Origin: Fictibacillus arsenicus
GTDB lineage: Bacteria > Bacillota > Bacilli > Bacillales > Fictibacillaceae
Assembly (NCBI RefSeq): GCF_001642935.1
Contig: NZ_CP016761.1
Coordinates: 2,666,001 to 2,730,000, forward strand
Direction: 5' to 3'
DNA: 64,000 bases
Of this stretch, positions 1,086 through 61,684 are shown piece by piece. The position numbers were made by a program, and so were the translations under genes. Below the pieces are notes generated by a model. It searched no databases and was not told where the DNA came from. It saw only the letters and a program-made list of their open reading frames with translations. Every line of letters begins with the position of its first letter. The first letter of the stretch is position 1.

Positions 1086-1362
1086 GTCGGTTTTCGTAAA
1101 GTAGGTTGCTTTAGAATGAGGTTGATTTCCGTTGCAGGGCTTGCTTTCCGCAGGGTGTGCGGTAAGCCCATTCATCGCAATGCGACTTTGAATGGTCTCA
1201 CCTGTCCCACTCATCCTGCAGGACAAGGAAGGCTCCGGCAGCTTAACACGCACGAAGAAAATGTGAAGTTCATTTTCGAGGAGTCTCGCCCTTCCACTTC
1301 AATTAACTTTTCAATGAAGGACTGATAAAAAATCTTACTATAGCAACAATCTTTAAAAAAAT
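1086..1362 (-). repeat. Palindromic repeat element copy 1 (module A type)
   Basis: Minus-orientation copy of the dispersed element. The core runs from GTTGATTTCCGTTGCAGG (1121) to the TTCCACTTCAATTAACTTTT segment at 1290-1309. Module A (GAAAATG..CATTTTC palindrome) lies at about 1250-1282. The outer arm AGCAACAATCTTT at 1345-1358 is followed at once by the terminator of the GGDEF gene. It fills most of the 404 bp gap between spoIIB and that gene. Short reading frames inside it are not credible genes. Confidence 0.85.
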
Positions 1363-1371
1363 GCCAAATTA

Positions 1372-1405
1372 AAAGACCCCAGATGAATTCCTGAGGTCTT
1401 TCGGG
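1372..1405 (-). terminator. Terminator of the diguanylate cyclase gene
   Basis: On the minus strand AAGACC and GGTCTT form a stem around an 18-base loop just after the stop codon at 1407, and TTTTAATTT follows. A typical rho-independent terminator. Confidence 0.8.
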
Positions 1406-1406
1406 A

Positions 1407-3128
1407 CTATCCTATATAAGCTGCCACTTTATTGCGGCCTTGTTGTTTTGCACCTGTATACATTGCTCTGTCGGCATTTCTTACTAGTGTTAATGGGTCT
1501 TCTCCTTGATGAGGAGCAGTAGCTACCCCAATACTCGCAGTTATGTATATCTTATGTTTACACTTATCGGTTAAATCATTGTGTATTTCAAATCCGTTGT
1601 CCGAAATTACAGAACGAAGCTCTTCAGCTATTTCTAAACATTCTTTCCCGCCAGATTCAGGCAGAAGAATAATAAATTCTTCCCCGCCATATCGGGCTAC
1701 TGTCCCGCGTTCTCCAATAAAATCCTCCAGCCTTCTAGCAAGCATTATGAGTACATCATTGCCGCTTTGATGACCGTAAGAATCATTTACTGCTTTGAAA
1801 TGATCGATATCTAGCAATATAACAGAGAATTGTTTTCTGAAATATTCGTAGTTGTTATACATACTAGCCAGAAGATCCTCAAAGTACCTGTAATTATATA
1901 GACCAGTTAATGGACACTGCTCACTTTTGAGCTTTGTGGATTCATAGTTTCTAGCATTATCAATGGCAACCGCTAAATAGTTTGCTAAAATCTCTAAAAT
2001 AATCAGATGGTGCTTTTGGTATGCATGTTTCTTCTTAGAAGCAAAAGTAATAATTCCGACGATTTTTTGATTTCGAATCATAGGAACGGCTACTACAGAT
2101 TCTGCTTTACCCTGAAAGAAAGTTTCAGATATTTCCCGCCACGCTTTCAACTTGCAGTACCTGATACTTTTTCCGGTAGACCATACTTTTCCGCTGATCG
2201 CTTCATGCTTTTTAATAGGAACAGAAGCCAGAATGCCTTCTTCACTTTCATACTTTCTAATGATTTTTAAATGTTCACCAGCATCTGCGTCATATATAAA
2301 GGCAAAATCAACAAACATAAATGCAATGAGTTTTTCAATAAAAACATCTAAAATATGATTTACTTTTAAATGCTCCGAAAGCTGCTGACCAATCTCGCTC
2401 GCTTTTTGCAAGGAAACATTTATCTGTTCGCTAGAATGATAGAGTTTAATAATGATTGAAAGTGATATAAACGGAAGCCCTACATAAAAAATAGCAGGCT
2501 GCCCTAATTGGGAATATAGAACGTACAGCATTAGTCCAACTGGTATAGCAAGAACTTCTGAAACTAGATCCCATAACGCATCCCATTCAATAAAACGACT
2601 GGATTCCTCATAAAGAACAGTAATAATGAAGTACAATCCGACATGATTCAGTACTAACCCTGTTAAAACATACCCAAAAACAGGTATTAAATTAATCGGT
2701 TCATTTAAATCAAATGCACCTGTTACTCCACCGAGCTGATAAAAAACACTCGCCTCACAAATAATGAGCCAGGAAAACATAAGGGTATTAGCCATATATC
2801 TGTAATACTCTTTGAAAACATTAACTTTAAGCGAAAAAAACATGGCCATTACAGATAGCAGCGTCATAGATAAAGCAACTGTTAAACCATAGTATAAAAA
2901 GACAGCTAAATTTATACCCGACATAAAAGAAATATTCGTATTAAGAACCTTAATAGGAAACAAAGAAACGATAATCGCTAAAAGCGAAATAATACCCAAG
3001 TCGATTAAATTTAAATCCGGCTGGTTATTTGTCATTTGCACGGCAGTCCACAACGCCAGAGGGAATAAAATCAGCCATGCCACTACTAGATATTTGCGTT
3101 TTCTCATATTATTCATCTGTGAACTCAC
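1407..3128 (-). CDS. Membrane-bound GAF-GGDEF diguanylate cyclase
   Basis: Predicted to make c-di-GMP from two GTP at the membrane. The 573-residue protein has about six to eight hydrophobic helices in residues 12-225, a GAF-type sensory domain (about 250-400) and a C-terminal GGDEF domain (about 410-573). The catalytic motif RYGGEEF is intact. The RxxD inhibitory site expected a few residues before GGEEF is absent (the stretch reads GERGTVARY), so the usual product inhibition should not operate. Translation starts at a GTG (3128) after GGGGGGAAG. In B. subtilis the prepilin peptidase gene comC lies between folC and spoIIB; here this gene takes that place. The signal sensed by the GAF or membrane part cannot be told from sequence. 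Confidence 0.85.
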   Translation of the reverse strand: MSSQMNNMRKRKYLVVAWLILFPLALWTAVQMTNNQPDLNLIDLGIISLLAIIVSLFPIKVLNTNISFMSGINLAVFLYYGLTVALSMTLLSVMAMFFSLKVNVFKEYYRYMANTLMFSWLIICEASVFYQLGGVTGAFDLNEPINLIPVFGYVLTGLVLNHVGLYFIITVLYEESSRFIEWDALWDLVSEVLAIPVGLMLYVLYSQLGQPAIFYVGLPFISLSIIIKLYHSSEQINVSLQKASEIGQQLSEHLKVNHILDVFIEKLIAFMFVDFAFIYDADAGEHLKIIRKYESEEGILASVPIKKHEAISGKVWSTGKSIRYCKLKAWREISETFFQGKAESVVAVPMIRNQKIVGIITFASKKKHAYQKHHLIILEILANYLAVAIDNARNYESTKLKSEQCPLTGLYNYRYFEDLLASMYNNYEYFRKQFSVILLDIDHFKAVNDSYGHQSGNDVLIMLARRLEDFIGERGTVARYGGEEFIILLPESGGKECLEIAEELRSVISDNGFEIHNDLTDKCKHKIYITASIGVATAPHQGEDPLTLVRNADRAMYTGAKQQGRNKVAAYIG

Positions 3129-3228
3129 GGCTTCCCCCCCTATTAATGTTCTATATACACATCTATTTTACTAGTACATTTATCTTATCTTTTTATTTTA
3201 TCAAAAGTTCAAAAAATTACAATAAATG

Positions 3229-4524: not shown

Positions 4525-4547
4525 ACTTAAGCCCGCCTTTCATAACG

Positions 4548-4598: not shown

Positions 4599-7250
4599 TT
4601 AGCTTTGAAGCTCTTTTATACGTGCTTGAACGTTATCATATTTTTCCTGATAATCACTTTCTTTTGCACGCTCTTCAGCAATAACCTTTTCAGGTGCTTT
4701 TTTCATAAAACCTTCGTTGCTTAATTTTTTCTGTACACGTTCTACTTCTTTCGCATATTTTTCCGCTTCTTTTTCAAGACGCTTGATCTCTTCTTCAATA
4801 TTCAGCAATCCTTCAAGAGGAAGATACATTTCAAGCCCAGTTAAAACGGTGCTCATGCTCTTTTCTGGTGCTGAGATTTCATCAGAAATCAAAAGTTCGC
4901 TCGGGTTGCAAAAACGTACTAAATAGTTGCGGTTTGTTTCCAGAGCTTTTAAAATCTCTTTATTTTTCGGCTTGATTTGGAGTTCGATCGGCTTGCTCGG
5001 TGCAACGTTCATTTCTGAGCGGATGTTACGAACAGAGCGGATCACTTCAGTTACAAGAGCAAATTCATTTGCAGCTTCTGGGAAATGAAGGTCATCTCGT
5101 TTTACCGGCCAAGAGGCAACAGTGATAGATTCACCTTCGTGAGGCAGATGCTGCCAGATTTCTTCTGTAATAAACGGCATGAACGGGTGAAGCAATCGAA
5201 GTGTCTGGTCCAGTACATAAGCCAAAACAGAACGAGTTGTTTTCTTAGCTTCTTCATCTTCTCCATAAAGCGGCAGTTTTGCCATCTCGATATACCAGTC
5301 ACAAAAATCATCCCAGATGAAGTTATAAAGAAGACGTCCAACTTCTCCAAATTCATAGGCATCAATCAGTCTTGTAATGTCTTCTGACGTTTCGTTAAGA
5401 CGAGTCAGGATCCATTGGTCAGCAAGTGACTTTTTGCCGCTCAAATCAATCTCATCGTATTGCAAGCCATCCATATTCATAAGTGCAAAACGGGATGCGT
5501 TCCAAATTTTATTAGCAAAGTTCCAAGTAGACTCCACTTTTTCCCAATAGAATCGGAGGTCGTTTCCAGGAGAGCTTCCGGTAGTTAAGAAGAATCTTAG
5601 TGCATCCGCACCGTATTTCTCGATAACATCCATCGGATCTACACCGTTTCCAAGTGACTTACTCATCTTACGCCCTTCAGAATCTCGAACAAGTCCGTGA
5701 ATCAATACATCATTAAATGGCTTTTGATCAGTGAACTCAAGCGATTGGAAAATCATTCTTGATACCCAGAATGAAATAATATCATATCCTGTTACAAGCA
5801 CATTTCCAGGGAAGTAGCGTTTTAAATCAGCAGATTCTTCATCCGGCCATCCCATTGTTGAAAAAGGCCAAAGAGCTGACGAGAACCACGTATCAAGGAC
5901 ATCTGTATCCTGCTCCCAATTTTCAGGATCATTAGGTTCTGTTTTTCCAACGTAGATTTCACCTGTTTCTTTATGGAACCAAGCTGGAATACGGTGTCCC
6001 CACCATAGCTGGCGTGAAATACACCAGTCACGGATGTTTTCAATCCAGCGCAAATACGTGTTTTCAAAACGGTCTGGAACGAAATTGACTTTGTCTTCGC
6101 TGCTTTGAAGCTTGATTGCTTCTTCTGCAAGTGGCTTCATTTTTACGAACCATTGAGTAGATAGGTAAGGTTCTACTACAGCACCGCTTCTCTCAGAGTG
6201 CCCCACCGAATGCATGTGTTCTTCAATTTTAAATAGAACTCCTTGATCTTGGAGGTCTTTTACAATTTGTTTTCGGCACTCAAAACGATCAAGCCCTTGA
6301 TATTTCCCGGCATTTTCGTTCATCTTTCCGCCTTCATCCATTACCAAGATACGTTCAAGGTTATGTCTGTTTCCGATCTCAAAGTCGTTAGGGTCATGAG
6401 CAGGTGTGATTTTTACAGCCCCTGAACCAAATTCCATATCTACGTAGTCATCACCTACGATCTCAATCTCACGTCCAACAATTGGCAAGATTGCCTTTTT
6501 ACCGATTAGATGCTGATAGCGCTCATCTTTCGGATGTACTGCGATAGCCGTATCTCCAAGCATTGTTTCTGGACGAGTAGTAGCTACTTCAATATATCCT
6601 GAACCATCTGCCAGCGGATATTTCATATGATAGAAAGCACCCTGAACATCCTGGTGAATAACTTCTATATCAGAAAGTGCTGTTTTTGTTTGAGGATCCC
6701 AGTTGATGATATACTCGCCGCGATAGATCAAACCTTTTTCGTAGAGCGTTACGAATACCTCTTTTACCGCTTCTGAAAGCCCTTCGTCTAATGTAAAGCG
6801 TTCACGGGAGTAATCTAATCCAAGACCAAGTTTTGCCCATTGCTGGCGGATAAAATGAGCATATTCCTCTTTCCATTCCCATGATTTCTCGAGAAACTTT
6901 TCACGCCCAAGATCATAGCGGGAAATTCCCTCTTCACGAAGCTTCCCTTCAACCTTAGCTTGAGTTGCAATGCCTGCGTGATCCATTCCAGGCAGCCATA
7001 AAACATCAAAGCCTTGCATGCGTTTTGTACGTGTAAGAATATCCTGCAGTGCAGTATCCCAAGCATGACCAAGGTGAAGTTTTCCGGTTACGTTCGGCGG
7101 CGGAATAACAATTGTATATGGCTCTTTCTCTTTGTCGCCTTTTGCTTCAAAGAATTTTCCTTTCAGCCAGAATTCATAACGGTTTTCTTCTGTAGCCTTC
7201 GGATCATACTTTGTCGGCATCGTAAGTTCTTTCTGTTCGTTCGTCATCAT
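4599..7250 (-). CDS. valS: Valyl-tRNA synthetase
   Basis: Class I aminoacyl-tRNA synthetase charging tRNA-Val. The protein of about 883 residues has the HIGH-type motif ([16 protein letters not shown], about residue 50), the inserted editing domain ([13 protein letters not shown]), the KMSKS loop ([13 protein letters not shown]) and a C-terminal arginine/lysine/glutamate-rich coiled coil (about 800-880). Two adjacent ATG codons (7250, 7247) follow AAAGGAGGAGAA; the second has the better spacing. Expression should respond to uncharged tRNA-Val through the T-box leader at 7645-7908. A repeat element (7273-7644) separates that leader's terminator from the start codon, giving an unusually long leader. 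Confidence 0.97.
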
Positions 7251-7272
7251 TTCTCCTCCTTTTATTTCTAAA

Positions 7273-7644
7273 GGCTCTTCTCTAAAAGATTTTTGCTTTT
7301 AACTTTTTTGTTGATTCTCTTCATTGACAAGGTTGATTGGAGTGCAAGGTGCGAGACTCCTCGAAAATGAACTTCACATTTTCTTCGTGCGATTTAAAGC
7401 TGCCGAAGCCTTCCTTGTCCTGCGGGATCAGCGTGCCAGCCACCTGAGTATCCTTCTCGCAAGGCATGCGACGAGGAAACTCTCTTCGTTAGGAGTTGCT
7501 TGTAGACGCAGGAGCACACATGCTTCATTGAGACTCCTAATGGTGCGAAGCGCAAAGGAAGCTCACCGCACGCCCCGCGGAAAGCGAGCATCCTGGAACG
7601 GAAATCAACCACTTCAAGGAGCAACAAAGTTTGCGAAAACAACC
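7273..7644 (+). repeat. Palindromic repeat element copy 2 (modules A and B)
   Basis: The largest copy, plus orientation. It begins with GGCTCTTCTCTAAAAGAT and then GGTTGATTGGAGTGCAAGG (7331-7349). It contains module A (about 7361-7394) and module B (CTTCTCGCAAGGCATGCGAC at 7453-7472, then TTGTAGACGCAGGAGCACAC). It closes with GGAAATCAACCACTTCAAGG, AGCAACAAAGTTTGCGAAAA and CAACC. It lies inside the valS leader, downstream of the T-box terminator. A 166-codon open frame across it is an artefact of the GC-rich palindrome. Confidence 0.9.
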
Positions 7645-7908
7645 TTTCTAAAAAACAAAAAAAGCCCAATCGTCTTAAAGGACGAAAGGACTTTTCCGCG
7701 GTACCACCTTAATTTACGGCAAGTTCAAATTAACTTGCTGTACTCTTCATCGATAACGGATTTACCGTCTTCTTCTACTTCATTGTTCAAAGAAGATGCT
7801 CAAGGGCGACTTCCAACCAACTAGCCTTAAGGATTCTTTCAGCAGATGAATCCTCTCTCTAAAAGGTGTTGCATTTGTACTATTCCCTGTCTACGCACAA
7901 TATAGAAT
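7645..7908 (-). promoter_or_regulatory. T-box leader of valS (predicted Val specifier GUC)
   Basis: The conserved T-box sequence GGTGGTACCGCGG is at 7708-7696 on the minus strand. The terminator follows: stem 7663-7674 with 7681-7692, then a T-run at 7651-7662. In stem I the AGGG/CCCT helix brackets an AGTA-containing loop, with GTC at 7810-7808 in the specifier position. GTC is a valine codon and fits the downstream valS. Uncharged tRNA-Val should stabilise the antiterminator. Specifier assignment is by manual folding. Confidence 0.92.
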
Positions 7909-11837: not shown

Positions 11838-11882
11838 GGCAAAAATAAAAATAGCGCCCGTTTTGATAAACGGACGCTATTT
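11838..11882 (-). terminator. Terminator of the hem operon
   Basis: Minus strand AGCGTCCGTTT and AAACGGGCGCT pair around ATCA, followed by ATTTTTATTTTT. It lies beyond repeat copy 3, downstream of hemL. Confidence 0.8.
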
Positions 11883-11884
11883 CG

Positions 11885-12167
11885 CATAAATTGTAGCTCT
11901 TGAAAGTAGTTGATTTCCGCTACGTTGCTCGCTTTCCACGGGGCGTGCGGTGAGCCTCCTGCCGCTTTGCGCCATTAGGATTCTCCACCTGACCGTTTTC
12001 ATGGAAGTATCCTTGCTCCTGCGTCTACAGTTAAATACTACCGATGTGAGATTCCTCGTCGCATGCCTAGCGAGAAGCTTCTTATGTGGTAGGCACGCAC
12101 CTTGCGCTCCTATCAACTTGCAATTGATGAGTACAGAAACAAACAAAAGCAACAATCTTTTAGAAAA
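11885..12167 (-). repeat. Palindromic repeat element copy 3 (module B)
   Basis: Minus orientation. GTTGATTTCCGCTACGTTG begins at 11910; GCGTGCGGTGAGCC follows. Module B is present in reverse (GTCGCATGCCTAGCGAGAAG, about 12058-12077, and GCTCCTGCGTCTAC). The right arm AGCAACAATCTTTTAGAAAA plus CAGCC ends at 12167. It sits between the hemL stop and the hem terminator, so it is transcribed as part of the hem mRNA. Confidence 0.88.
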
Positions 12168-12171
12168 CAGC

Positions 12172-13458
12172 CTATTTCAATAATGAAAAAGCTTTTCTGA
12201 ATGCATCAACTGTTTTGTTAATATCATCTTCAGTATGTGCAGTTGATAAGAATAATCCCTCAAATTGTGAAGGTGGAAGAGAAACCCCTTCATGCAGCAT
12301 CGTGCGGAAACAAGAATTAAAATGATCTAAGTTTGATAACTTAGCTGTTTCATAATTAATTACATCTTGATTAGTAAAGAAGAAACCAATCATGCTTCCT
12401 GCACGGTTGATCGTATGGTCGATCCCGTAATGTTCTGCTGCTTCAGATATTCCGGAAGCAAGCTGATCACCAAGCTTTTTAAAATAATCGTAACTTTCTT
12501 TTGTTAGCTGAGATAGAGTAGCATAACCTGCAGCCATTGCTAATGGATTGCCAGACAATGTTCCTGCCTGATAAATAGGTCCGCTAGGTGCGATTTGCTG
12601 CATGATTTCACGCTTACCTCCATAAGCACCGACGGGAAGACCCCCGCCGATTACTTTCCCTAAACATGTAAGGTCAGGTGTGACACCGAAATACCCTTGA
12701 GCGCATTCATAATCCACACGGAATCCTGTCATAACTTCATCAAAGATTAATAGAGAGCCATGTTGTTCCGTCATTTTACGGATTCCCTCAAGGAACCCTT
12801 TTTGAGGTGGTACTACACCCATGTTCCCAGCCACTGGCTCAACGATTACACAGGCAATATCTTCTCCGAATTGATCGAATGCAACTTGGAGACTTTCAAG
12901 ATCATTGTACGGAACCGTGATCGTATTTTGCGCTATCCCTTCAGGTACACCTGGAGAATCTGGCAGGCCAAGAGTCGCGACCCCTGACCCTGCTTTGATC
13001 AGCAATGAGTCGCCATGACCATGGTAACAGCCCTCGAATTTTACTATCTTGCTTCTCCCTGTATATCCGCGCGCAAGACGAAGCGCGCTCATCGTTGCCT
13101 CTGTTCCGGAGTTGACCATACGAACCACTTCTATAGAGGGAACACGGTCAATTACAAGTTTCGCCAGTTTCGTTTCCATCTCGTTAGGAGCTCCAAAACT
13201 AGTTCCACGTTCAGCAGTCTCTTTAAGAGCTTTTACCACTGCTTCATCTGCATGGCCTAAAATTAATGGACCCCATGATAAAACATAATCAATATATTCA
13301 TTTCCATCGATATCATAAATTTTAGATCCTTTGCCGCGCTCCATAAATACAGGATCCATATTCACTGATTTAAAAGCACGTACAGGACTGTTTACGCCGC
13401 CAGGCATATATTCCTTCGCTTCTTTGAAAGCCGCGATTGATTTTTCAAAGTTTCTCAT
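12172..13458 (-). CDS. hemL: Glutamate-1-semialdehyde 2,1-aminomutase
   Basis: PLP enzyme converting glutamate-1-semialdehyde to 5-aminolevulinate, the last step of the C5 route. 428 residues. PLP motifs are seen: [29 protein letters not shown] and the lysine block [19 protein letters not shown] longer frame begins at 13476, but its first codons are the GGGGGAGGG ribosome site; the ATG at 13458 (MRNFEKS) is properly spaced. Last gene of hemA-X-C-D-B-L. Repeat copy 3 follows its stop codon. Confidence 0.96.
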
Positions 13459-18618: not shown

Positions 18619-19095
18619 ATGAAACAACAAAGCAAATTCAGCGGATTTATTTTAATTGGAATTGGTTTATTCTTTTTCGCAATTCAAATGAACATTGAAG
18701 TGATTCAGCCTTATCTGACATGGCCAACATTGATTCTAATTATTGGACTGGCACTCCTTATGCAAGCAGGTTCAGGAAAAGATTCAGCAAGTCTGTTTTC
18801 AGGTGTTTTCCTTACTGGACTCGGCATACATTTTCATGCTGTTTCAAAGCTTCCTTCCTGGCCGGAGCCGCTGCAAATGATAACTCTGCTTACAGGGATA
18901 GCATTCTTAATACAGTATAAAAAGGCGAAAGACGGCCTTATACCCGGACTATTAATAACTAGTTTGTCACTTTGGCTTATCTTTTTTAACCATAATACCC
19001 CTTCTGTAGAAAATATATTTGCAAAAGCAGAAAGTTTCTGGCCGATCATCTTGATGGTATTAGGTGCCTATTTCATATTTTTCAAGAAAAAATAA
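18619..19095 (+). CDS. Small polytopic membrane protein, unknown
   Basis: 158 residues on the plus strand, divergent from hemA and convergent with engB. Five to six hydrophobic helices (FILIGIGLFFFAIQMN, TLILIIGLALLMQA, MITLLTGIAFLIQ, GLLITSLSLWLIFF, FWPIILMVLGAYFIFF) and a lysine-rich tail. The pattern of paired helices with LGxxLL-type text resembles LiaI/DUF5668-like proteins. Position corresponds to B. subtilis ysxD, but homology was not tested. The start follows TTGGAGGACTT. It has its own terminator. Confidence 0.8.
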   Translation: MKQQSKFSGFILIGIGLFFFAIQMNIEVIQPYLTWPTLILIIGLALLMQAGSGKDSASLFSGVFLTGLGIHFHAVSKLPSWPEPLQMITLLTGIAFLIQYKKAKDGLIPGLLITSLSLWLIFFNHNTPSVENIFAKAESFWPIILMVLGAYFIFFKKK

Positions 19096-19131
19096 AAGCA
19101 GTGTTCGATTTTGAACACTGCTTTTTTTCTT
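19096..19131 (+). terminator. Terminator of the small membrane gene
   Basis: AAAAGCAGTGTTC and GAACACTGCTTTT pair around GATTTT; a T-run follows. Repeat copy 4 begins right after it. Confidence 0.88.
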
Positions 19132-19132
19132 G

Positions 19133-19366
19133 GGCTCTTTTCTAAAGATTGTCTTCGCATACATTGTTGCTTTTGAAAGTAGTTGACCTGCGCTCCAGGC
19201 TGCTCGCTTTCCACGGGGCGTGCGGTGAGCCTCCTGCCGCTTTGCGCCATTAGGAGTCTCCACCTGACCGCTCGTCCCGTAGGAGTCTCGCCACCTTGCG
19301 CTCCAATCAACGTGCAAATGATGAGAATAGAAAAAGCCAAAAGCAACAATCCTTTAGAAAAGAGCC
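19133..19366 (-). repeat. Palindromic repeat element copy 4
   Basis: Minus orientation; basic type. GTTGACCTGCGCTCCAGG at 19183, GGGGCGTGCGGTGAGCC, then CTTGCGCTCCAATCAAC. The right arm AGCAACAATCCTTTAGAAAA ends at 19366. It shares its right arm border with copy 5. Confidence 0.88.
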
Positions 19367-19535
19367 TTTCTAAAAGATTGTTGCTACTTAGAGATTCTCG
19401 CAAAATTCTTCGATGAAAAGTTAATTGGAGTGGAAGGGCTGCAGGACGAACGGGCTCACCGCACACCCTGCGGACAGCGAGTCCTGCAACGGAAATTAAC
19501 CACTTCCAAGAGCAACAAAGCGTTCGAAATAAGCC
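19364..19535 (+). repeat. Palindromic repeat element copy 5 (short)
   Basis: Plus orientation, shortened inside: GTTAATTGGAGTGGAAGGGC (19419) runs soon into GGGCTCACCGCACACCCTGC and GGAAATTAACCACTTCCAAG. It ends with AGCAACAAAGCGTTCGAAAT at the engB stop. With copy 4 it forms an inverted pair of whole elements. Confidence 0.8.
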
Positions 19536-19537
19536 TC

Positions 19538-37894: not shown

Positions 37895-37951
37895 TTTCAT
37901 TCCTCCTTCATCTTTTGGACCCATTTATTTAATAAAAAAGCATTTCCCTAA

Positions 37952-38145
37952 ATCTTAGCAGCTCTTAGGAGGGTTGATTTCCGCTCCAGGTGCTCGCTTT
38001 CCGCGGGGCGTGCGGTGAGCCTCCCTATCGCTTCGCGCTGGCGGGGTCTCACCTGTCCCGCTGATCCCGCAGGAGTCTCGCACCTTACGCTCCAATCAAC
38101 TAGTCAATGAAGCGCTTTATAAAGAGCAAAATTTAGAAAACAGCC
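37952..38145 (-). repeat. Palindromic repeat element copy 6
   Basis: Minus orientation, basic type: GTTGATTTCCGCTCCAGGTG (37973), GGGGCGTGCGGTGAGCC, CTCACCTGTCCCGCTGATCC, CCAATCAAC, then the arm AGAGCAAAATTTAGAAAACA and GCC. It sits between the ilvB start and the terminator of the T-box, the same arrangement as at valS. Confidence 0.9.
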
Positions 38146-38146
38146 A

Positions 38147-44117: not shown

Positions 44118-44166
44118 ACAAAAATAAAAAGAACAGCTTCACAAAAAATGTGAGTCTGCTCTTTTT
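44118..44166. terminator. Terminator between racE and gerM (bidirectional)
   Basis: AAAAGAACAGCTTCACA and TGTGAGTCTGCTCTTTT pair with A-run left and T-run right. Serves racE on the minus strand; repeat copy 7 starts directly at its right side. Confidence 0.8.
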
Positions 44167-44168
44167 TA

Positions 44169-44448
44169 GGCTAGTTTCTAAATAAATGTTGCTTTCGAGT
44201 ATTTTGTTACCTCTCTTCATTGCAAGTTGATTGGAGCGGAAGGTGCGAGACTCCTCGAAAATGAAAATCAACATTTTCTTCGTGCGATGTAATGCTGTCG
44301 AAGCCCTCCTTGTCCTGCGGGATCAGCGGGACAGGTGAGACCCCGCCAGCGCGAAGCGATAGGGGGCTCACCGCACGCCCCGCGGAAAGCGAGCATCCTG
44401 GAGCGGAGATCAACTACTTACAAGTACAACAAAGATAGCGAAAACGGT
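44169..44448 (+). repeat. Palindromic repeat element copy 7 (module A)
   Basis: Plus orientation. GGCTAGTTTCTAAATAAATG arm, GTTGATTGGAGCGGAAGGTG (44226), module A at about 44253-44287, GGGCTCACCGCACGCCCCGC, GAGCGGAGATCAACTACTTA and the arm ACAACAAAGATAGCGAAAAC. It lies between the racE stop and the racE terminator. Confidence 0.9.
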
Positions 44449-44453
44449 ATTTT

Positions 44454-45257
44454 TTAAAGCTTGATACATTCTACCTTATCTATTTTTGTATTAAGCCAAT
44501 GATTGGCTATTTTTAAAAACTGGCTGCTTTCTGCAGTCGCTAAAAATCTGTGCACCGGTTTCTTTTCTCCAGTGTTTAAAATTCCGCTATGATCGAGAAT
44601 AACGGAAACCTCCCGGGCGGTTTCTGCACCTGAACATAAGATTTTGATATGTTCACCCATTACTCGCTGAATTACCGGCCGTAACAAAGGGTAATGTGTA
44701 CAGCCTAAAATCAGCGTGTCTATTGAAACATCCTTAAGAGGATATAATGTTTCTGAAACAGCATTCAATGTTTCTTCTCCGGAAAGCTTCCCTTGTTCAA
44801 CTAAAGGAACGAATAATGGACAAGCCAAGCTCTCCACGATTACATCACTGCGGATCTGCTGAAGGGCCTGCTTATACGCTCCGCTATTTATTGTTCCTAT
44901 CGTACCAATCACGCCTACATGGTTATTCTTAGTTGCTTTTAAGGCAGAGCGCGCCCCAGGGTGTATAACCCCTATTACAGGTATATCGAGCTTCTTTTTC
45001 GCTTCATCTAATACAGCAGCTGTAGCGGTATTACATGCGATTACAAGTAATTTAATCTCCTGGTCTATAAGAAAGTTAATCATTTCCCACGTATATGTTC
45101 TTACCTCTTCAAAAGGTCTAGGACCATATGGACAACGCTTAGTATCACCTAAATATATGATTTCTTCTTTTGGGAGCTGTTTCATCAGCTCTCTGACAAC
45201 GGTTAATCCGCCCACTCCTGAATCTATTACGCCTATAGGTCTATTCAAAACATACAT
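44454..45257 (-). CDS. racE: Glutamate racemase
   Basis: Makes D-glutamate for peptidoglycan (and poly-glutamate). About 267 residues. Catalytic cysteines in [10 protein letters not shown] and [27 protein letters not shown] and [16 protein letters not shown]. Start uncertain: ATG 45275, ATG 45257 or a TTG a few codons later; the family's usual N-terminus favours a short leader. Confidence 0.93.
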
Positions 45258-45389: not shown

Positions 45390-45575
45390 AGCAACATCCG
45401 TTCTAGCAATCCTTGTTGCACTTGAAAGAGGTTGATTTCCGTTACAGGTGCTCGCTTTCCGTGGGGCGGGCGGTGAGCCTCCTTCACCCTTTGGGTAATT
45501 AGGAGTCTCACCTGTCCCACTCGTCCCACAGGAGTCTCCCACCTTTCACTCCAATCAACTTTATCAATGAAGAAA
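45390..45575 (-). repeat. Palindromic repeat element copy 8
   Basis: Minus orientation, basic type, with poor outer arms: CTTGTTGCACTTGAAAGAGG, GTTGATTTCCGTTACAGGTG (45431), GTGGGGCGGGCGGTGAGCC, CTCACCTGTCCCACTCGTCC, CTCCAATCAACTTTATCAAT. Lies in the 478 bp gap between racE and ptsI; the rest of the gap (45260-45390, 45576-45670) shows no feature. Confidence 0.85.
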
Positions 45576-45671
45576 TTTACGAAATGAACAGTATGCAAAA
45601 CGATCTAGTCCAGCCTTGACGTCCAAAAATAGATTTTGTTCCTTTTTTTACTGCAAAGACTAGAATGTACG

Positions 45672-49803: not shown

Positions 49804-49945
49804 AGGAAGTCCTCCTTTTTTATTATGATAACCCTTCCATTTACTTCCGCTAAAAACAAAAAAGACATAAATAAAGAACATGAGCAAATTTACCTAATCA
49901 GATATAATATATCCTAATTAAGCATTCGCTACACTTTGTTCTTTA

Positions 49946-55441: not shown

Positions 55442-55888
55442 ATGTTTAAACAAAAAACAAAGGACGAGACTACCCCTGTCGAAAAGCCTTCTGTTTCAGC
55501 TTTTGGGTACGAGATCCTTCGCAGCGATTTATTACCTGAACTTCTTGGTAAACAAGAAAGAAATATTCTATATTGGGCTGGCAGACACCTTGCCAGAAAA
55601 TACCCTTTACATACAATGGAAGAAGTAAGTGCTTTTTTCAATGAAGCAGGCTGGGGTAATCTCGAAATGATTGAAGCATCAAAAACAGAAATGGTGTTCT
55701 CACTTCATTCGTTACTTATCGAACAGCGGATCGAGAATTTCCAGCACAACACTTTCAGTTTAGAAGCTGGTTTTCTAGCAGAACAAATTCAGCTGCAAAA
55801 AAAATGTACAACAGAAGCACTTGAGTCAATGAAACGCAATAAAGTTTCCATTACGGTCCAATGGGACAAAAAAGATACAATTGAATGA
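55442..55888 (+). CDS. yslB: YslB family protein (DUF2507)
   Basis: 148-residue soluble protein divergent from sdhC. GYEILRSDLLPELLGKQER, ILYWAGRHLARKYPL and FFNEAGWGNLEMIEA form the compact alpha/beta domain of the DUF2507/V4R-like family; no active site is known. Charged ends. The start follows AGAAAGAAGGGATGCAG. Function unknown. Confidence 0.88.
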   Translation: MFKQKTKDETTPVEKPSVSAFGYEILRSDLLPELLGKQERNILYWAGRHLARKYPLHTMEEVSAFFNEAGWGNLEMIEASKTEMVFSLHSLLIEQRIENFQHNTFSLEAGFLAEQIQLQKKCTTEALESMKRNKVSITVQWDKKDTIE

Positions 55889-55920
55889 ACAAAAGCCGGC
55901 TGATGCCGGCTTTCTTTAAT
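55889..55920 (+). terminator. Terminator of yslB
   Basis: AAAGCCGGC and GCCGGCTTT pair around TGAT, then CTTTAATT. Repeat copy 9 begins just after. Confidence 0.85.
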
Positions 55921-55925
55921 TGTAA

Positions 55926-56142
55926 GGCTCTTTTCTAAAAGCCTATTTCTAAAAGATTGTTACTTTTAATATTTAAATGAGTACGCTTCCTTGAAAGTTG
56001 ATTGGAGCGCAAGGTGCGAGACTCCTGCGGGTCGAGCGGGACAGGTGAGACTCCTAAGGGCGCAAAGCGCGAGGAGGCTCACCGCACGCCCCGCGGAAAA
56101 CGAGTATCCTGAAGCGGAAATCAACTGCTTCTACTTAAAGCC
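55926..56142 (+). repeat. Palindromic repeat element copy 9
   Basis: Plus orientation, basic type: GGCTCTTTTCTAAAAG, GTTGATTGGAGCGCAAGGTG (55998), GGGACAGGTGAGACTCC, GGCTCACCGCACGCCCCGC, GAAGCGGAAATCAAC; the right arm has decayed. Confidence 0.9.
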
Positions 56143-56171
56143 GTCCGATAAAAGTCGATGGCAAATAATGC

Positions 56172-56669
56172 TTATTTTTGAACAGGAACACGTGCATCCA
56201 GTTCAAATGTGTCATGAAGAGTTTCAATTGATTTAATCATATCTTCCTGTTTCACTACAGTTGAAACTTTAATTTCAGATGTACTTACCATTTTAATCAT
56301 CACATCTTGGTCGGATAGAGCTTTAAACATCATTGCCGCTACACCAGGGTTAGAGATCATTCCTGAACCAACGATGGAAACTTTAGCAAGATTGCCTTCA
56401 TAGCTGATAGATTCAAAGCCTAGTTTATCTTGGTTTTCAGCAAGTACTTCTTGAGTATCTGACAATATACTGGAGTCGATAGAAAAAGAGATATTGGTCT
56501 TTTCCTGGTTCATCACGTTTTGAATGATAATGTCTACATTTATTCCGTTGCTTGCCAAGATCGTGAACAAATCCGACAAAGCATTAATTTCGTTTGGCAT
56601 GTTGGTTACCGTAATCTTTGTTATGTTACCTTCAAAAGCTAAACCTCTAACCATTAAGTTTTGTTCCAT
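56172..56669 (-). CDS. Aspartokinase beta subunit from an internal start
   Basis: In-frame ATG at 56669 (MEQNLMVRGLAFEGN) with a strong AGAGGAGGAAG site at the right distance inside lysC. The product of 165 residues would be the two ACT domains only. B. subtilis lysC makes its beta subunit in the same way, so this is expected rather than accidental. Confidence 0.8.
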   Translation of the reverse strand: MEQNLMVRGLAFEGNITKITVTNMPNEINALSDLFTILASNGINVDIIIQNVMNQEKTNISFSIDSSILSDTQEVLAENQDKLGFESISYEGNLAKVSIVGSGMISNPGVAAMMFKALSDQDVMIKMVSTSEIKVSTVVKQEDMIKSIETLHDTFELDARVPVQK

Positions 56670-57407
56670 AGTTGCTTCCTCCTCTACTAGCGTTCCTCGT
56701 TCATCACTCATACTTGATCTGACTTCTAAAACAATCGAATAGTTTTTTGCAAACTCCACAGCTCTCGGGTGCAAGACACCTGCCCCAAGATTAGCCATTT
56801 CAAGCATCTCATCATAAGAAATAGATGGTATTTTTCTTGCTGTCTTAACTGCACGAGGGTCAGTCGTGTAAACACCGGTAACATCTGTATAAATGTCACA
56901 GCGATCAGCTTTCAGAACGGCCGCCAGCGCTACAGCGGTTGTGTCTGATCCGCCTCTTCCAAGTGTTGCAATATCATTCGTCTCAGGAATCAAGCCTTGA
57001 AATCCTGCAACCACCACAATATTCCCGTCTTTCAACAAACCGTTGATCCGTTCAGAATCAATGTCTAGTATTCTGGCATTTGAATGATTATTCTCTGTTT
57101 GAATGCCTGCTTGCCAGCCTGTCAGGGAAAGGGCTTTATAACCTTCCTGATGCAAAGCCATCGTTAATAAGGCTATAGTGACTTGTTCACCTGTTGTGAG
57201 GAGCATATCCATTTCACGTTTAGAAGGATTTTTGCTGATTTCTCCAGCCAATCTGACAAGTTCATCTGTTGTTTTGCCCATTGCAGATACGACAACAACG
57301 ACTTCATTGCCATTGTTGACTTCGTTAATAATTCTTTTTGCAGCGTTTTGGATCCGTTCAACCGAACCGACACTTGTACCGCCAAATTTTTGTACGATTC
57401 TCCCCAT
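56172..57407 (-). CDS. lysC: Lysine-sensitive aspartokinase (alpha subunit)
   Basis: Phosphorylates aspartate, the first step to lysine, methionine and threonine. 411 residues: kinase domain (VQKFGGTSVGSVERIQ; LGRGGSDTTAVALAA) and two ACT domains (about 260-411). Start 57407 after TTGGAGAAG. Two layers of control are visible: a lysine riboswitch upstream and an internal start for the beta subunit at 56669. Corresponds to aspartokinase II of B. subtilis. Confidence 0.96.
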   Translation of the reverse strand: MGRIVQKFGGTSVGSVERIQNAAKRIINEVNNGNEVVVVVSAMGKTTDELVRLAGEISKNPSKREMDMLLTTGEQVTIALLTMALHQEGYKALSLTGWQAGIQTENNHSNARILDIDSERINGLLKDGNIVVVAGFQGLIPETNDIATLGRGGSDTTAVALAAVLKADRCDIYTDVTGVYTTDPRAVKTARKIPSISYDEMLEMANLGAGVLHPRAVEFAKNYSIVLEVRSSMSDERGTLVEEEATMEQNLMVRGLAFEGNITKITVTNMPNEINALSDLFTILASNGINVDIIIQNVMNQEKTNISFSIDSSILSDTQEVLAENQDKLGFESISYEGNLAKVSIVGSGMISNPGVAAMMFKALSDQDVMIKMVSTSEIKVSTVVKQEDMIKSIETLHDTFELDARVPVQK

Positions 57408-57460
57408 CTTCTCCAAATCCTTTCCTGTTTTAATTTTCTATCTCTTTAAGAAACAAAAAA

Positions 57461-57735
57461 GCAACAATAAGGAAAAACCCTATTGTTGCTATATCCGCAG
57501 CAAGCCAAGTTTGTTTCCCCCTAGTGAGATAGTCCTCCACACAAGTCCTGGGGGGAATTGTGTGACAGCTCTGTATTTATTCAATACAGGTCCAGCATAA
57601 AAGGCTAGAAGTCCTTTTAAACTTCGGCAAGAATCCCCTTTCTTCCACCCTCACAAGAGCTTCTTCTCTTCAGATGGGATACTATTGGTTCCTGCTCCTC
57701 TACCATCACTTCATCAGAAGCATGGCATATTTATA
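57461..57735 (-). promoter_or_regulatory. Lysine riboswitch (L box) of lysC
   Basis: Minus strand shows the L-box landmarks GTAGAGGAGC, GAGGGTGGAAGAAAGGGG, GCCGAAG and GCTGGACCTGTATTG in the right order. They are followed by a terminator AGCAACAATAGGG / CCTTATTGTTGCT with a T-run ending at about 57461. Lysine should cause early termination upstream of lysC. Confidence 0.92.
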
Positions 57736-57775
57736 AAGTTGGTCTCATTTTAACAAAGTTACTAAATGACTGCAA

Positions 57776-59551
57776 CTAGTCTTTTGATAAAAAAGCTTTG
57801 TTTATTTCTTCCGCAACTGCTCTTGGAACTCCCGCTTCCTGAATCTCTTCCACCGTTGCCTCTTTCATTTTTTTCATTGACCCGAAATGACGGAGCAGCA
57901 TCTTCTTTCTTTTTTCTCCTATCCCAGCAATCCCATCCAAAATAGACTCGAACATACTTTTTGACCGGACTTTGCGATGAAAAGAAATGGCAAAACGGTG
58001 CACTTCATCCTGCACTCTTTGAAGCAAGTAAAATTCTTGGCTGTTTCTCGGAAGTTGAATCATCTCAGGCGGATCACCGAGCCATAATTGAGATGTACGG
58101 TGCTTCTCGTCCTTTGACAGCCCTGCCACAGGGATGAAAAGATTAAGTTCGTTTTCAAGTACATCTTGAGCAGCTGAAATCTGACCTTTCCCGCCATCAA
58201 TAAGGATTAAGCTTGGCAATTCACCTTCTTCTCTAAGCAATCTCGAATACCTTCTGCGAACAACTTCCTTCATAGAAGCATAGTCATCAGGACCCTCTAC
58301 AGATTTTATTTTATACTTTCGATAATCCTTTTTATAAGGCTTCCCGTCAACAAAGACAACCATAGCTGAAACTGGGTCTGTACCGTGAATGTTTGAGTTA
58401 TCAAATGCCTCAATCCTATAAGGCGGAGCAATACCCATTCTTTCGCCTAAGTTTTCAACTGCTTTTATTGTCCGTGCTTCATCTTGCTCGATTAGTGCAA
58501 ACTTTTCGTGCAGTGCAAGAGTTGCATTTTTTGTGGCCAATTCAACTAGTTCCTTCTTTTGCCCTTTTTGCGGCTGAAGAACTTTAACTTTAAGAAGCTC
58601 TTGAATCATATTAGCATCCACCTGTTTGGGCAAAAGAATTTCTTTTGGAAGCAGATGATTTTTTTGAAGATAAAACTGGCCAATAAAAGTAAGCAGGTCT
58701 TCGTGCGCTTCCCCGTAAAAAGGAAATACAGATATATCTCTAGCAATAACTTTCCCTTGACGAATAAAAAACACCTGTACACACATCCAGCCTTTATCGA
58801 AATGATAACCGAATACATCTCTGTCGACTAAATCGGAAGTCATCATCTTTTGTTTTTCCATAACGGCTTCAATATGCTGGATCTGGTCACGCAGCTCTTT
58901 TGCCCGTTCAAAATTTAAGGCTTCAGATGCTTCAAGCATTTTTTCTGACAGCTGTGTCTTCACATCCTGGTAACCGCCGTTCAGGAACTTTATGATACCT
59001 TCTACCATTTGTTTGTTCTGTTCATCTGAAACTTCATAAACACATGGACCAAGACATTGACCAATATGGTAATAGAGGCATACTCTTTTCGGCATCGTAT
59101 CACATTTTCTTAGCGGAAAAATACGATCCAGAAGCTTTTTTGTTTCTTGTGCAGCATATGCGTTAACAAATGGACCAAAATATTTTCCGCCGTCTTTCTT
59201 AATCTTCCTTGTATATAAAAGACGAGGTTGTTTTTCAGAAGTAACTTTTAAGTATGGATAGCTTTTATCATCTTTTAACATGACGTTATAACGAGGATCA
59301 TGTTTTTTGATTAAGTTCATCTCGAGAACTAAGGCTTCCATTTCAGTAGAAGTAACAATATATTCAAAGTCTCTGATCTCACTGACTAACCGCTGGGTTT
59401 TTCCGTCATGCGATCCAGAAAAATATGATTTCACTCTATTTTTTAATACTTTTGCTTTCCCTACATAGATTACTTTTCCAAATTCATTCTTCATTAAATA
59501 GCAGCCAGGCTGATCTGGAAGCAGCATTAATTTTTGTTTAATTGAGGTCAA
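57776..59551 (-). CDS. uvrC: Excinuclease ABC subunit C
   Basis: Makes both incisions in nucleotide excision repair. 591 residues: N-terminal GIY-YIG nuclease ([19 protein letters not shown]), a cysteine-containing middle ([12 protein letters not shown]), UVR domain binding UvrB (about 200-235, [14 protein letters not shown]), RNase H-like nuclease with [15 protein letters not shown] and [10 protein letters not shown], and C-terminal helix-hairpin-helix pair. Starts with TTG (59551) after AGGGGTGGAAAG. Confidence 0.96.
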
Positions 59552-59655
59552 TATCTTTCCACCCCTCTGGTGTACCTGTTATTTAATCATAATATCATAG
59601 AAAATGACTTTTTTAGTTCTTTACCGCTCATCACTTTTTTGTTTACTTTATAAAA

Positions 59656-59968
59656 AAGCTCTTCTCTAAAAGATTGTTGCTTTTGGCTCATTTTTTTTAT
59701 TCTCTTCATTGACAAGTTGATTGGAGTGCAAGGTGCGAGTCTCCTGCGGGAGCAGCGTGCCAGCTACCTGAGTATTCTTCTCGCAAGGCATGCGACGAGG
59801 AAGCTCGCTTCGTTAGGAGTTGCTTGTAGACGCAGGAGCACACATGCTTAATTGAGACTTCTAATGGCGCAAAGCGCCGAGAAGGCTCACCTCACGCCCC
59901 GCGGAAAGCGAGCATCCTGTAACGGAAATCAACCACTTCCAAAAGTATCAAAGTTTGCGAAAACAGCC
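59656..59968 (+). repeat. Palindromic repeat element copy 10 (module B)
   Basis: Plus orientation: AGCTCTTCTCTAAAAGATTG, GTTGATTGGAGTGCAAGGTG (59716), module B (CTTCTCGCAAGGCATGCGAC at 59777-59796; TTGTAGACGCAGGAGCACAC), GCTCACCTCACGCCCCGC, GGAAATCAACCACTTCC, TTTGCGAAAACAGCC. It abuts the T-run of the next terminator and fills most of the gap between uvrC and the frameshifted gene. Confidence 0.92.
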
Positions 59969-59969
59969 T

Positions 59970-60002
59970 AAAAAAAGACCTGCAAAAGAAAGCAGGTCTT
60001 GG
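59970..60002 (-). terminator. Terminator of the small frameshifted gene
   Basis: Minus strand AAGACCTGC and GCAGGTCTT pair around TTTCTTTT, then seven T. Shows that the 60010-60251 region is, or was, a transcription unit. Confidence 0.88.
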
Positions 60003-60009
60003 ATGGCCA

Positions 60010-60251
60010 TCATTCATTTGTATCACAGGAAGGATACTCTCTAATCTTTCTTACGGGTCTTCTCATTTCATTCCATATTCCTGGGATCACATTCCCTAAG
60101 TATTTCTTGAATGTAATAAATGAAGTACCTGTCGTTCTGACTTTGTAGGTGATTGGAACTTCTTTTTACCGTGTTCTTCTGGGGAACACTTTATTACCAT
60201 TTGAGCGTGAACATACTGGTAACAAGTGGGGCAGGCTTTATTGGGAGCCAT
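60010..60251 (-). pseudogene. Small Cys-containing gene with a one-base frameshift
   Basis: Not recognised. From the ATG at 60251 the minus strand encodes MAPNKACPTCYQYVHAQMVI and continues to HGK, then 51 codons in all to a stop at 60096. In the -1 frame, right after an A5 tract (60167-60163), a second protein-like stretch follows: EVPITYKVRTTGTSFITFKK, then YLGNVIPGIWNEMRRPVRKI, ending SCDTNE at the TGA at 60012-60010. It has no start codon of its own. Joined by one added A the product would be about 80 residues with a CPTC motif. A terminator follows at the expected place. Either a one-base deletion, a sequencing error, or translational slippage. Confidence 0.55.
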
Positions 60252-60261
60252 TTGCTTCGTT

Positions 60262-60290
60262 CCCTAAACTTTAGGCGTCAACAGCTCCCA
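60262..60290. other. Nested inverted repeats before the small gene
   Basis: CCTAAACTTTAGG (60263-60275) is a perfect 13 bp palindrome around one base. A second pair, TGGGAGC (60242-60248) and GCTCCCA (60284-60290), encloses it and the ATG at 60249-60251. Could be an operator or a leader hairpin; both are inference. Confidence 0.4.
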
Positions 60291-60295
60291 TAGAA

Positions 60296-60320
60296 AAAAG
60301 CCCGGAATACCGGGCTTTGA
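60296..60320 (-). terminator. Terminator of trxA
   Basis: Minus strand AAAGCCCGG and CCGGGCTTT pair around TATT, then TTTT. Confidence 0.9.
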
Positions 60321-60326
60321 CGATGT

Positions 60327-60638
60327 TTACTTATGTTTGTTTAAAAGCTCAACCAATGCGTCTTTTGGCTGGAAGCCTACAACTTGATCAACGACTTGGC
60401 CGTCTTTGAATACTAGAAGTGTAGGAATACTCATTACACCATATTTCCCAGCTGTTTCTTGGTTTTCATCTACATCAAGTTTAACAACTTTAACTTCTTC
60501 AAGCTCTTGGTCTAGTTCTTCAAGAACTGGAGCGATCATTTTACAAGGTCCGCACCAAGGTGCCCAGAAATCAGCAAGTACTAAACCTTCATTTGTTTCT
60601 GTATTAAATGTTTGATCTGATGCATTTACAATAGCCAT
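60327..60638 (-). CDS. trxA: Thioredoxin
   Basis: 103-residue cytoplasmic thiol-disulfide reductant with the active site [11 protein letters not shown] and the cis-proline MSIPTLLVF. Start follows AAGGAGGGCC. Normal length and complete. Confidence 0.98.
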
Positions 60639-60754
60639 TTATTTGGCCCTCCTTTTAAATTAACAAAGTGTAAACAAAGTATATCACCACAAATTACACA
60701 GTTGCTAATAGTTTGCTCAACTTTATGGTACCCAAGTTTTAATTATGACAAACG

Positions 60755-61345
60755 TTATATGGTTTTTGCCTCTTCTAGATGCTTGTGACAATTAAACAAT
60801 TCACAAGACCAATTTTGGTCCTGAAGTTTAAAGATCGAAAGAGACGTATTATTTAATCCATACCACTTATCCGTTTTATCCTGTAAAAAAGATTTGTAAA
60901 TCCTCACAAGGAGTGCGCCGTGAGTCACGATGAGAACTTTTTGGTTCTCGTGGTTCTGAACAATTTCCTTTAAAGCTTCTTGCCACCGTGTGTCAGCCAG
61001 CTCATTTGATTCCCTGCCGAGCTCAAGCTTAATCCAATCTTCTCCCCAGCGTTCTATTCTTTCAGCTTCAGTAGTTCCTTCTGTTTCTCCAAATGAGATC
61101 TCGCGCAGCCTATCATCCGGCAAAATATCCAGTCCTGTTAATTCCTGAATCGCTTCTGCGGTTTTAAAAGCTCTTGATAATGGACTCGCATAGATCGCAT
61201 CCCATTTTTCTGTACGAAGACGTTCCGCAAGGGCTTTAGCCTGCTTTATTCCCTGTTCATTCAATGGAATATCCATACATCCTTGAGCCCTTCTTTCAAT
61301 GTTCCAATCCGTTTCTCCATGGCGAATAAAGGCTATAGTCGTCAC
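60755..61345 (-). CDS. Histidine phosphatase family protein (phosphoglycerate-mutase-like)
   Basis: 196 residues. The phosphohistidine motif AFIRHGETDWN at the N-terminus, YASPLSRAFKTAEAI, REISFGETEG and the second histidine in LIVTHGALLV are all present. Broad-specificity phosphatase or a cobalamin/alpha-ribazole type enzyme are both possible. A GTG at 61345 after GAGGGGGAG is preferred over the ATG at 61375. In B. subtilis a different gene occupies the place between trxA and etfA. Confidence 0.9.
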   Translation of the reverse strand: MTTIAFIRHGETDWNIERRAQGCMDIPLNEQGIKQAKALAERLRTEKWDAIYASPLSRAFKTAEAIQELTGLDILPDDRLREISFGETEGTTEAERIERWGEDWIKLELGRESNELADTRWQEALKEIVQNHENQKVLIVTHGALLVRIYKSFLQDKTDKWYGLNNTSLSIFKLQDQNWSCELFNCHKHLEEAKTI

Positions 61346-61397
61346 CAAAAACTCCCCCTCTTCAATACACATCAAAGTACATTGTTATCTTTTTAAA

Positions 61398-61684
61398 GGC
61401 TCTTTTCAAATAGATTGTTGTTTTTGAATCGTTTTTTAAAGACACTTCGTTGAAAAGTTGATTGGAGCGCAAGGTGCGAGACTCCTGCGTGCCAACCACC
61501 TGAATATACTTCTTGCAAGGCATGCGACGAGGAACACGCTTCTATGCTGTTTTGCTTGTAGACGCAGGAGCACACAAACTTCCTTGAAGGTGAGACCACG
61601 GCAGGCTTATTAGCCTCACCGCACGACCCGCGGAAAGCGAGCATCCTGGAGCGGAAATCAACCCTTTCAAATAGCAACAAAGCC
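61398..61684 (+). repeat. Palindromic repeat element copy 11 (module B)
   Basis: Plus orientation: GGCTCTTTTCAAATAGATTG, GTTGATTGGAGCGCAAGGTG (61458), module B from CTTCTTGCAAGGCATGCGAC (61509), GAGCGGAAATCAACC, AGCAACAAAGCC. Its end touches the T-run of the etfA terminator. Confidence 0.92.

Follow-up and report, generated by a model that had tools for sequence, protein, structure and literature searches.

What are the eleven dispersed palindromic elements in a 64,000-nt stretch of the Fictibacillus arsenicus genome (contig NZ_CP016761.1, positions 2,666,001 to 2,730,000; this whole stretch is called the window below), and why do they carry a hairpin? The original prediction, made from the sequence of this DNA, offered two readings, a non-autonomous element family or a transcribed structural RNA. 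Our best explanation, to which we assign a probability of about three in four, is a family of miniature inverted-repeat transposable elements (MITEs) with ends of the IS1595 type, moved in trans, together with a proposal for the fold of their core. Terminal inverted repeats, 8-bp duplications, empty and filled sites, and an IS1595 transposon with nearly the same ends bear out the first of the two readings, and the mobile nature of the elements, their ends, their target, and the probable transposase class are well supported.

Copies in the window

All eleven copies were present at the predicted positions. The 20-mer GGCTCACCGCACGCCCCGCG matched 11 times in the window at up to three mismatches, once per copy (0.00 expected by shuffling), the left motif matched 10 times (0.05 expected), and GAGCGGAAATCAACC matched 13 times (1.48 expected), with 10 of the 13 matches lying within copies. 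The copies, the reference core, and the target site duplications (TSDs) are as follows.

1086..1365, minus strand: e1, long form; TSD AAATTAAA at 1078-1085 and 1366-1373
7273..7644, plus strand: e7, long form; TSD TTTCTAAA at 7265-7272 and 7645-7652
11875..12172, minus strand: e12, long form; left end approximate, adjoined by a terminator-like hairpin
19133..19535, plus strand: e19b, center mostly lost; interrupted by e19a at 19147-19366
19147..19366, minus strand: e19a, compact, nested in e19b; TSD TTTCTAAA at 19139-19146 and 19367-19374
37939..38145, minus strand: e38, compact; TSD AATAAAAA at 37931-37938 and 38146-38153
44169..44448, plus strand: e44, long form; near-TSD CTTTTTTA (44161-44168) and ATTTTTTA (44449-44456)
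45390..45620, minus strand: e45, compact; ends approximate, no TSD recognized
55926..56145, plus strand: e56, compact; right end approximate, no TSD recognized
55997..56126, plus strand: reference compact core GTTGATT...AATCAAC, ~130 nt, one irregular hairpin
59657..59968, plus strand: e59, long form; near-TSD TATAAAAA and TAAAAAAA
61398..61675, plus strand: e61, long form; right end approximate, no TSD recognized

The single layout that had been predicted for all copies holds for their edges, which are the same, but not for what lies between them. The compact copies (e19a, e38, e45, and e56) have a core of ~130 nt, the long forms (e1, e7, e12, e44, e59, and e61) carry internal modules between those edges, and e19b has lost most of its center. 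As we read the alignment and the oriented sequences, each long copy has one or both of two internal modules at constant places; one of these modules is also present in another genus of the family (L051 and L061). The predicted imperfect inverted-repeat halves comprise two nested sets in the alignment of the eleven copies, outer terminal repeats and, inside them, a hairpin core bounded by GTTGATT and AATCAAC. RNA folding of three copies gave z-scores of -3.3, -3.7, and -3.0. The copy e19a is nested within the left terminal arm of e19b and has TTTCTAAA on both sides.

Termini and target sites

The left terminus GGCTcTTTTCTAAAAGATTGTTGCTTTTG and the right terminus CAAnAGCAACAAAGTTTGCGAAAACAGCC are imperfect inverted repeats of each other, with the consensus GGCTnTTTTC...TTGTTGC. 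Of the genome's 57 compact copies, 36 were dropped because the two termini could not both be recognized, and target duplications were counted for the remaining 21. A perfect 8-bp repeat was found outside the ends in 8 of the 21 copies, compared to 0.46 expected when the right flanks were shuffled. Repeats of 5, 4, and 6 bp were found in two, two, and one copies, respectively (0.23, 1.5, and 0.3 expected), and none were found for the remaining lengths in the 4-12 bp range. Within the window, exact 8-bp duplications surround e1, e7, e19a, and e38, and those of e44 and e59 match at 7 of 8 positions; no 8-bp TSD was recognized in the flanks of e12, e19b, e45, e56, and e61.

The insertions prefer the T-tracts of intrinsic terminators. 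A terminator-like hairpin with its T-run pointing at the junction was located within 30 nt of that junction in 7 of the 11 window copies, which corresponds to 7 of 10 separate sites because the terminator counted for e19a is located at the outer left end of e19b, and a hairpin of this kind was next to the junction in 11 of 19 other copies. By comparison, such a hairpin was near 100 of 1000 intergenic points drawn at random and near 158 of 1000 intergenic 8-mers consisting of A and T only. The excess over these all-AT points had p values of 5e-4 for the window copies and 4e-5 for the other copies.

Empty and filled sites in relatives

The comparison with close strains that had been suggested as a check was performed with five relatives of the same genus, which align syntenically to the window over 27-62 kb. 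Counting e19a and e19b as one, ten sites in five genomes gave 50 comparisons, of which six lacked a flank and 44 were used. The orthologous span was 81 bp or shorter, and so either element-free or holding scrap only, in 15 of the 44, distributed over e1, e7, e12, e44, e45, e56, and e61. Spans this short were seen for e1 in three of five relatives, one of which (G012) seems to retain a scrap of the element. The e7 and e12 sites were each empty in two of five relatives, with G012 as a third relative holding an e7 remnant that has lost its core, and the e44, e45, e56, and e61 sites were empty in two, one, three, and two of the four relatives compared, respectively. Some spans of intermediate length are also remnants, as for e7 in G012. 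The e59 site had spans of 160 and 468 bp in G009 and G011, and in G006 and G014 a core match beside the left flank was followed by other DNA (4.4 kb span). Element orientations in the relatives were not used because a palindrome matches both strands.

The empty e7 site of G014, CCTTTTATTGCTAAAAAACAAAAAAAG, contains a single copy of the stretch that is duplicated in the window. An insertion that the window lacks at 49817-49824 is present in G006 and G014, where the flanking alignments overlap by 8 and 7 bp. The e7 site is patchy, being filled in G006, G011, and G005, a remnant in G012, and empty in G014, G009, G016, G002, and G004; this pattern points either to a hot spot that received the element more than once or to loss.

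A transposase with nearly the same ends

The claim that no transposase accompanies the elements proved correct for the IS1595 family, as domain PF12762 had no matches in this genome, although 13 matches of the IS1182-type transposase domain PF13751 are present (including L155, L161, L165, L169, and L173). A transposase with matching terminal repeats, which the original prediction had proposed to look for, was found in a related genome. The locus L077, from another family of the order, is an IS1595 element of ~1.6 kb that starts GGCTGTTTTCGTAAGGATTGTGGCTATTG, has GGCTGTTTTCGTATAGATTGTTGCTATTT at its other end, and has flanks matching at 7 of 8 positions. Its ends GGCTGTTTTCGTAAGGATTGTGGC and GGCTGTTTTCGTATAGATTGTTGC are close to those of the window copies, with nearly the same 24-nt termini, and its protein was assigned to the IS1595 family transposases by NCBIfam with 203.9 bits (cut-off 75). 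Matches to PF12762 were obtained in 11 of 60 genomes searched (8 above the cut-off), among them 2 of the 17 other genomes of the genus. Three further loci, L076, L082, and L083, have the end variant GGCTCTGTTAA or GGCTATGTTAA (GGCTnTGTTAA type) and exact 8-bp duplications; L082 is in the genus of the window, and L076 has two overlapping frames with a partial match to the IS1595 models of NCBIfam. No core match was obtained up to an E-value of 10 in the 11 IS1595 loci (~3 kb each, one cut by a contig end), and we therefore rejected the core as an internal part of IS1595.

The ends could in principle come from another family that generates 8-bp duplications, such as ISL3 or IS6, both of which do so and start with GG. 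We consider this very improbable. The ISL3 domain PF01610 had no matches in this genome, and ISL3 was rejected as the source of the ends, with no search having been aimed at IS6; moreover, it is an IS1595 element that has nearly the same 24-nt termini.

Numbers and orientation in the genome

The predicted density of one copy per ~6 kb is found within the window, but elsewhere in the genome it is ~1 per 15 kb. This value derives from 20 sampled stretches of 20 kb each, 400 kb in all, which contained 27 further elements above 40 bits, with two adjacent elements at L020 merged and counted once; a wrong-strand match of 16.7 bits (window 55930-56096) and a 20-bit piece (L016:8690-8717) were dropped. 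We estimate a total of ~270-330 elements. A first look at the whole genome (4.06 Mb, one contig) yielded 334 compact-core candidates, and 40 of the 40 that were scored matched.

Orientation relative to flanking genes was unbiased for 37 elements, one of 38 being excluded for want of an open reading frame (ORF) on both sides: 11 were sense and 13 antisense between tandem genes, 10 were between convergent genes, and 3 were between divergent genes. A host function tied to one strand was rejected on this basis. None of the 37 elements was inside an ORF, a count to which we give no weight because it is biased by the prior removal of ORFs of <200 aa that overlap elements. Three ORFs run through repeat copies in the window, at 7324-7824 (plus strand), 19068-19571 (minus strand), and 61393-61728 (minus strand).

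Fold of the core

The consensus core is one irregular hairpin of 44 pairs. Compensatory base changes, which had been proposed as a check, were abundant. Among 66 distinct cores, 93.4% of cells were paired, and 26 of the 44 pairs (120 cells) were changed on both sides. None of 500 shuffles reached any of the five measures used, and sliding the partner by 1-3 columns left 38-45% paired. The structure that RNAalifold predicted unaided was similar, and 17 of its 31 pairs had double changes.

One-sided stem variants were counted as distinct types in 105 Fictibacillus compact cores; cores outside 118-136 nt were excluded from this set (1 of 106) and from a set of 214 cores (11 of 225). The G-U, A-C, and other types numbered 9, 11, and 29, respectively, when found in one copy, 8, 4, and 8 when found in two or three copies, and 10, 2, and 6 when found in at least four copies. 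Pair-breaking types thus made up 40 of 49 in one copy versus 8 of 18 in at least four copies (p = 0.005). Inserted copies seem to decay regardless of the fold, and variants that are passed on seem to keep it more often. We tentatively propose that the fold serves the element itself, and give this a little less than even odds. There is also a weak hint that the strand GTTGATTGG...AATCAAC would be the one that folds as RNA.

A strong rival is that the core has no function and that these are ordinary MITEs descended from an early founder with palindromic arms, the covariation having arisen by arm-to-arm correction during replication. We judge this a serious contender that nonetheless falls clearly short of an even chance. 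Palindromic arms are able to correct each other, the single-copy variants look neutral (4 G-U, 7 A-C, and 22 other), and no orientation bias exists; yet the shared one-sided variants favor pair-keeping states, which conversion alone does not predict.

A second rival is a host-serving regulatory or structural RNA, for example a stabilizer of 3' untranslated regions or a leader element, dispersed through transposition and maintained locus by locus. The strong covariation agrees with it, as do two copies that would be transcribed: e7 is between a T-box leader (7675-7902, minus strand) and valS (4599-7250, minus strand), and e38 is between a T-box-like leader (38189-38448, minus strand) and ilvB (36176-37924, minus strand). 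The latter leader scored 87.9 bits (E 5.9e-20), slightly under the Rfam gathering score of 93. This rival is improbable in our view, given the random orientation, the polymorphism of sites among close relatives, and the breaking of pairs by 40 of the 49 single-copy types. The broader alternative in the original prediction, a possible transcribed structural RNA, has the stem covariation in its favor, whereas the random orientation and mostly pair-breaking single-copy variants argue against an RNA that serves the host and is retained at every locus. Random orientation, polymorphic sites, and the decay of inserted copies make a fold for the element's own multiplication a better fit to the data than host regulation by an RNA.

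A known RNA family was rejected, as no Rfam family reached its gathering score on any copy in the whole window. In the E-value mode for 55800-61800, the only overlap was a partial match of BSnc120 at the start of e56 (24.9 of 114 bits).

Spread of the core and its other ends

Similar sequences had been noted in other Bacillaceae, a range that is too narrow because the core is found across the order. The covariance-model search proposed earlier was run with a model built from 69 cores, with at most 11 candidates scored per genome, and matched the core at E ≤1e-4 in 230 of 299 genomes of the order. A draw from the phylum gave the core in 3 of 299 genomes; two of these, the present genome included, belong to the order, and the third belongs to a different order of the same class. 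Among the matches listed, genera with the exact pattern included Fictibacillus, Priestia, Peribacillus, Cytobacillus, Metabacillus, Neobacillus, Lederbergia, Mesobacillus, Niallia, and Thalassobacillus. The order-wide matches fall in 94 of 116 genera sampled, and that the same fold is recognizable in all of these argues against a functionless core, as does the recurrence of the core between unrelated ends.

A genome from another order of the class (G489) has a diverged core, GTTGAGT...ACTCAAC (L372-L376), with at least 11 matches and flanks unlike IS1595 ends. An exact pattern match was also found in a record titled Pseudomonas sp. ISL-84 (L204, JAGGRA010000050.1), which we guess to be a mislabeled or contaminated Bacillales assembly. 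The core was matched in 15 plasmid records. In three that were opened, the copies are between metabolic or transport genes, one of the regions has a recombinase and a Tn3-family transposase close by, and a special plasmid context was rejected as nothing special was seen in them. The annotation of two plasmid records places a hypothetical protein over the matched stretch. Spread by phages was rejected on the basis of no matches in phage records at E 1e-5.

At least three kinds of ends were found around the core. Cores in two other families (G027 and G028) have GGCTnTGTTAAA-type ends and exact 8-bp duplications (L048, L066, L057, and L059), and exact 8-bp repeats also surround many cores of named records. 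For the 123 full-length core matches in named and plasmid loci, 36 of the best end pairs start GGCTCT (23) or GGCTGT (13). Ends of the form GGGGCTGTCC...GGACAGCCCC, or near variants of it, occur at six loci (L185, L218, L220, L237, L272, and L292), of which four are listed under Fictibacillus sp. FJAT-27399. In the genome G034, a similar core has CAGTGTGTAGACAAAG-like ends, with a left motif like GTGTAGACAAAG in 10 of 15 cores inspected; eight cores (L135, L138, L141-L145, and L060) are between two copies of a terminator-like hairpin, and the five of the 15 without the motif have other flanks. The two flanking hairpins of L141 and of L142 have the same stem and different loops, as if stems are kept while loops drift.

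NCBIfam assigned L157, L159, and L162 to the IS1182 family. The PF13751 elements L162, L166, and L170 resemble the G034 cores in their CAGTGTGTAGACAAAG-like ends and in the duplicated terminator-like hairpins on their flanks; these ends are not those of the window copies. L157 and L163 begin CAGATTGTAGACAAAAGG. In G034 itself, no IS1182 element had ends identical to those of the G034 MITEs, and the one PF13751 match there, L159, has other ends. This L159 (contig C6, ~205 kb) is inserted in the apical hairpin of a core, as expected for a family that targets hairpins, and L173 of the window's own genome is located in a duplicated hairpin.

These findings allow a more speculative and rather unlikely proposal, in which the core would be a portable selfish module, as folded RNA or single-strand DNA, persisting across the order by being packaged between whatever transposon ends are available (IS1595 ends of two types, IS1182-type ends, and GGGGCTGTCC ends), with selection acting only on the fold of multiplying copies.

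Proposed mechanism

In the model that we favor, the copies are non-autonomous DNA transposons with IS1595-type terminal inverted repeats; their targets are AT-rich and 8 bp long, preferably in the T-tract beside intrinsic terminators, and an IS1595-family transposase would probably act in trans as their mover. Because the genome now has no IS1595 match, the family may be stranded, or IS1595 elements that are gained and lost may reactivate it from time to time. As a folded single strand, either a transcript or an extruded DNA strand, the 130-nt core would aid multiplication or survival of the element, possibly by stopping read-through into the element ends or by offering a structure that the machinery of transposition or replication recognizes. 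More descendants would then come from lineages in which the fold is intact, and inserted copies would decay freely.

Several observations weigh against this model. The lack of PF12762 matches extends from this genome to 15 of the 17 others of the genus; both ends were found at only 4 of the 11 IS1595 loci; the GGCTnTTTTC type was found solely at L077, in another family; and the sole IS1595 element of the genus with both ends, L082, is of the GGCTATGTTAA type. In GGCTCTGTTAA-type elements, the right edge of the core overlaps the inner terminal repeat of the insertion sequence (IS), TGTTGATTT, so that the core is not wholly independent of the ends; this overlap hints that it may originally have been part of a GGCTCTGTTAA-type MITE. 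Two of the ten sites, e19 and e38, were occupied in every relative compared (n = 4 for e38). Concerning the fold, arm-to-arm gene conversion could produce some of the double changes, and the variants in two or three copies are intermediate (12 of 20 pair-breaking). With each type counted once, the strand asymmetry, in which shared variants are more often G-U than A-C, is of borderline significance (p = 0.06), and the all-copy G-U:A-C counts of 435:254 and 96:26 are inflated by kinship and were set aside. The control on unpaired columns carries little information, as C and T are scarce among them, and G>A outnumbers C>T in these columns. Contrary to the proposed strand, 132 of 214 cores have C-A at pair 56-80.

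The family provides up to hundreds of natural copies per genome for asking why a transposon conserves a hairpin, and a core this widespread is without an Rfam family. It also raises the questions of whether one passenger can change transposon ends, and of how insertion by terminators and inside T-box leaders affects gene expression. Elsewhere in the window, at 28772-28848, are three imperfect tandem copies with 21-bp spacing that start ATCACATAAAA or similar.

Comparison with known systems

The elements are short, have no transposase gene, and exhibit terminal inverted repeats, a target duplication of fixed length (8 bp), and insertion polymorphism, all as for MITEs. They share with IS1595 insertion sequences and derived MITEs the termini GGCTnTTTTC or GGCTnTGTTAA and the 8-bp AT-rich target duplications, and differ from the insertion sequences in having no transposase gene and in carrying the 130-nt core, for which the 11 IS1595 loci examined gave no match. 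Structured MITE families include ERIC/RU-1, NEMIS/Correia, RUP, and QMITE. We know of none in which one core is common to several unrelated transposon ends. The window elements are small, palindromic, and non-autonomous like structured MITEs of other bacteria, the transcripts of which can fold stably (PMC10969869, PMC3733652). We found no description of these elements in the literature, including by sequence words, in a search that mostly did not extend to subscription papers and does not prove absence; the main text of a 2024 review of prokaryotic MITEs does not mention Bacillus, Bacillaceae, or IS1595 (PMC10969869). Comparable repeats are bcr1 and others of the Bacillus cereus group, which are dispersed and intergenic like the window elements, with bcr1-bcr3 called MITE-like and often found in untranslated regions (PMC3446304). 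The first bcr element is reportedly confined to the B. cereus group, and repeat mobility was linked to a TTTAT motif, whereas the window family is order-wide with varied 8-bp duplications; it is set apart from bcr1-bcr18 by their published description rather than by sequence (PMC6542083).

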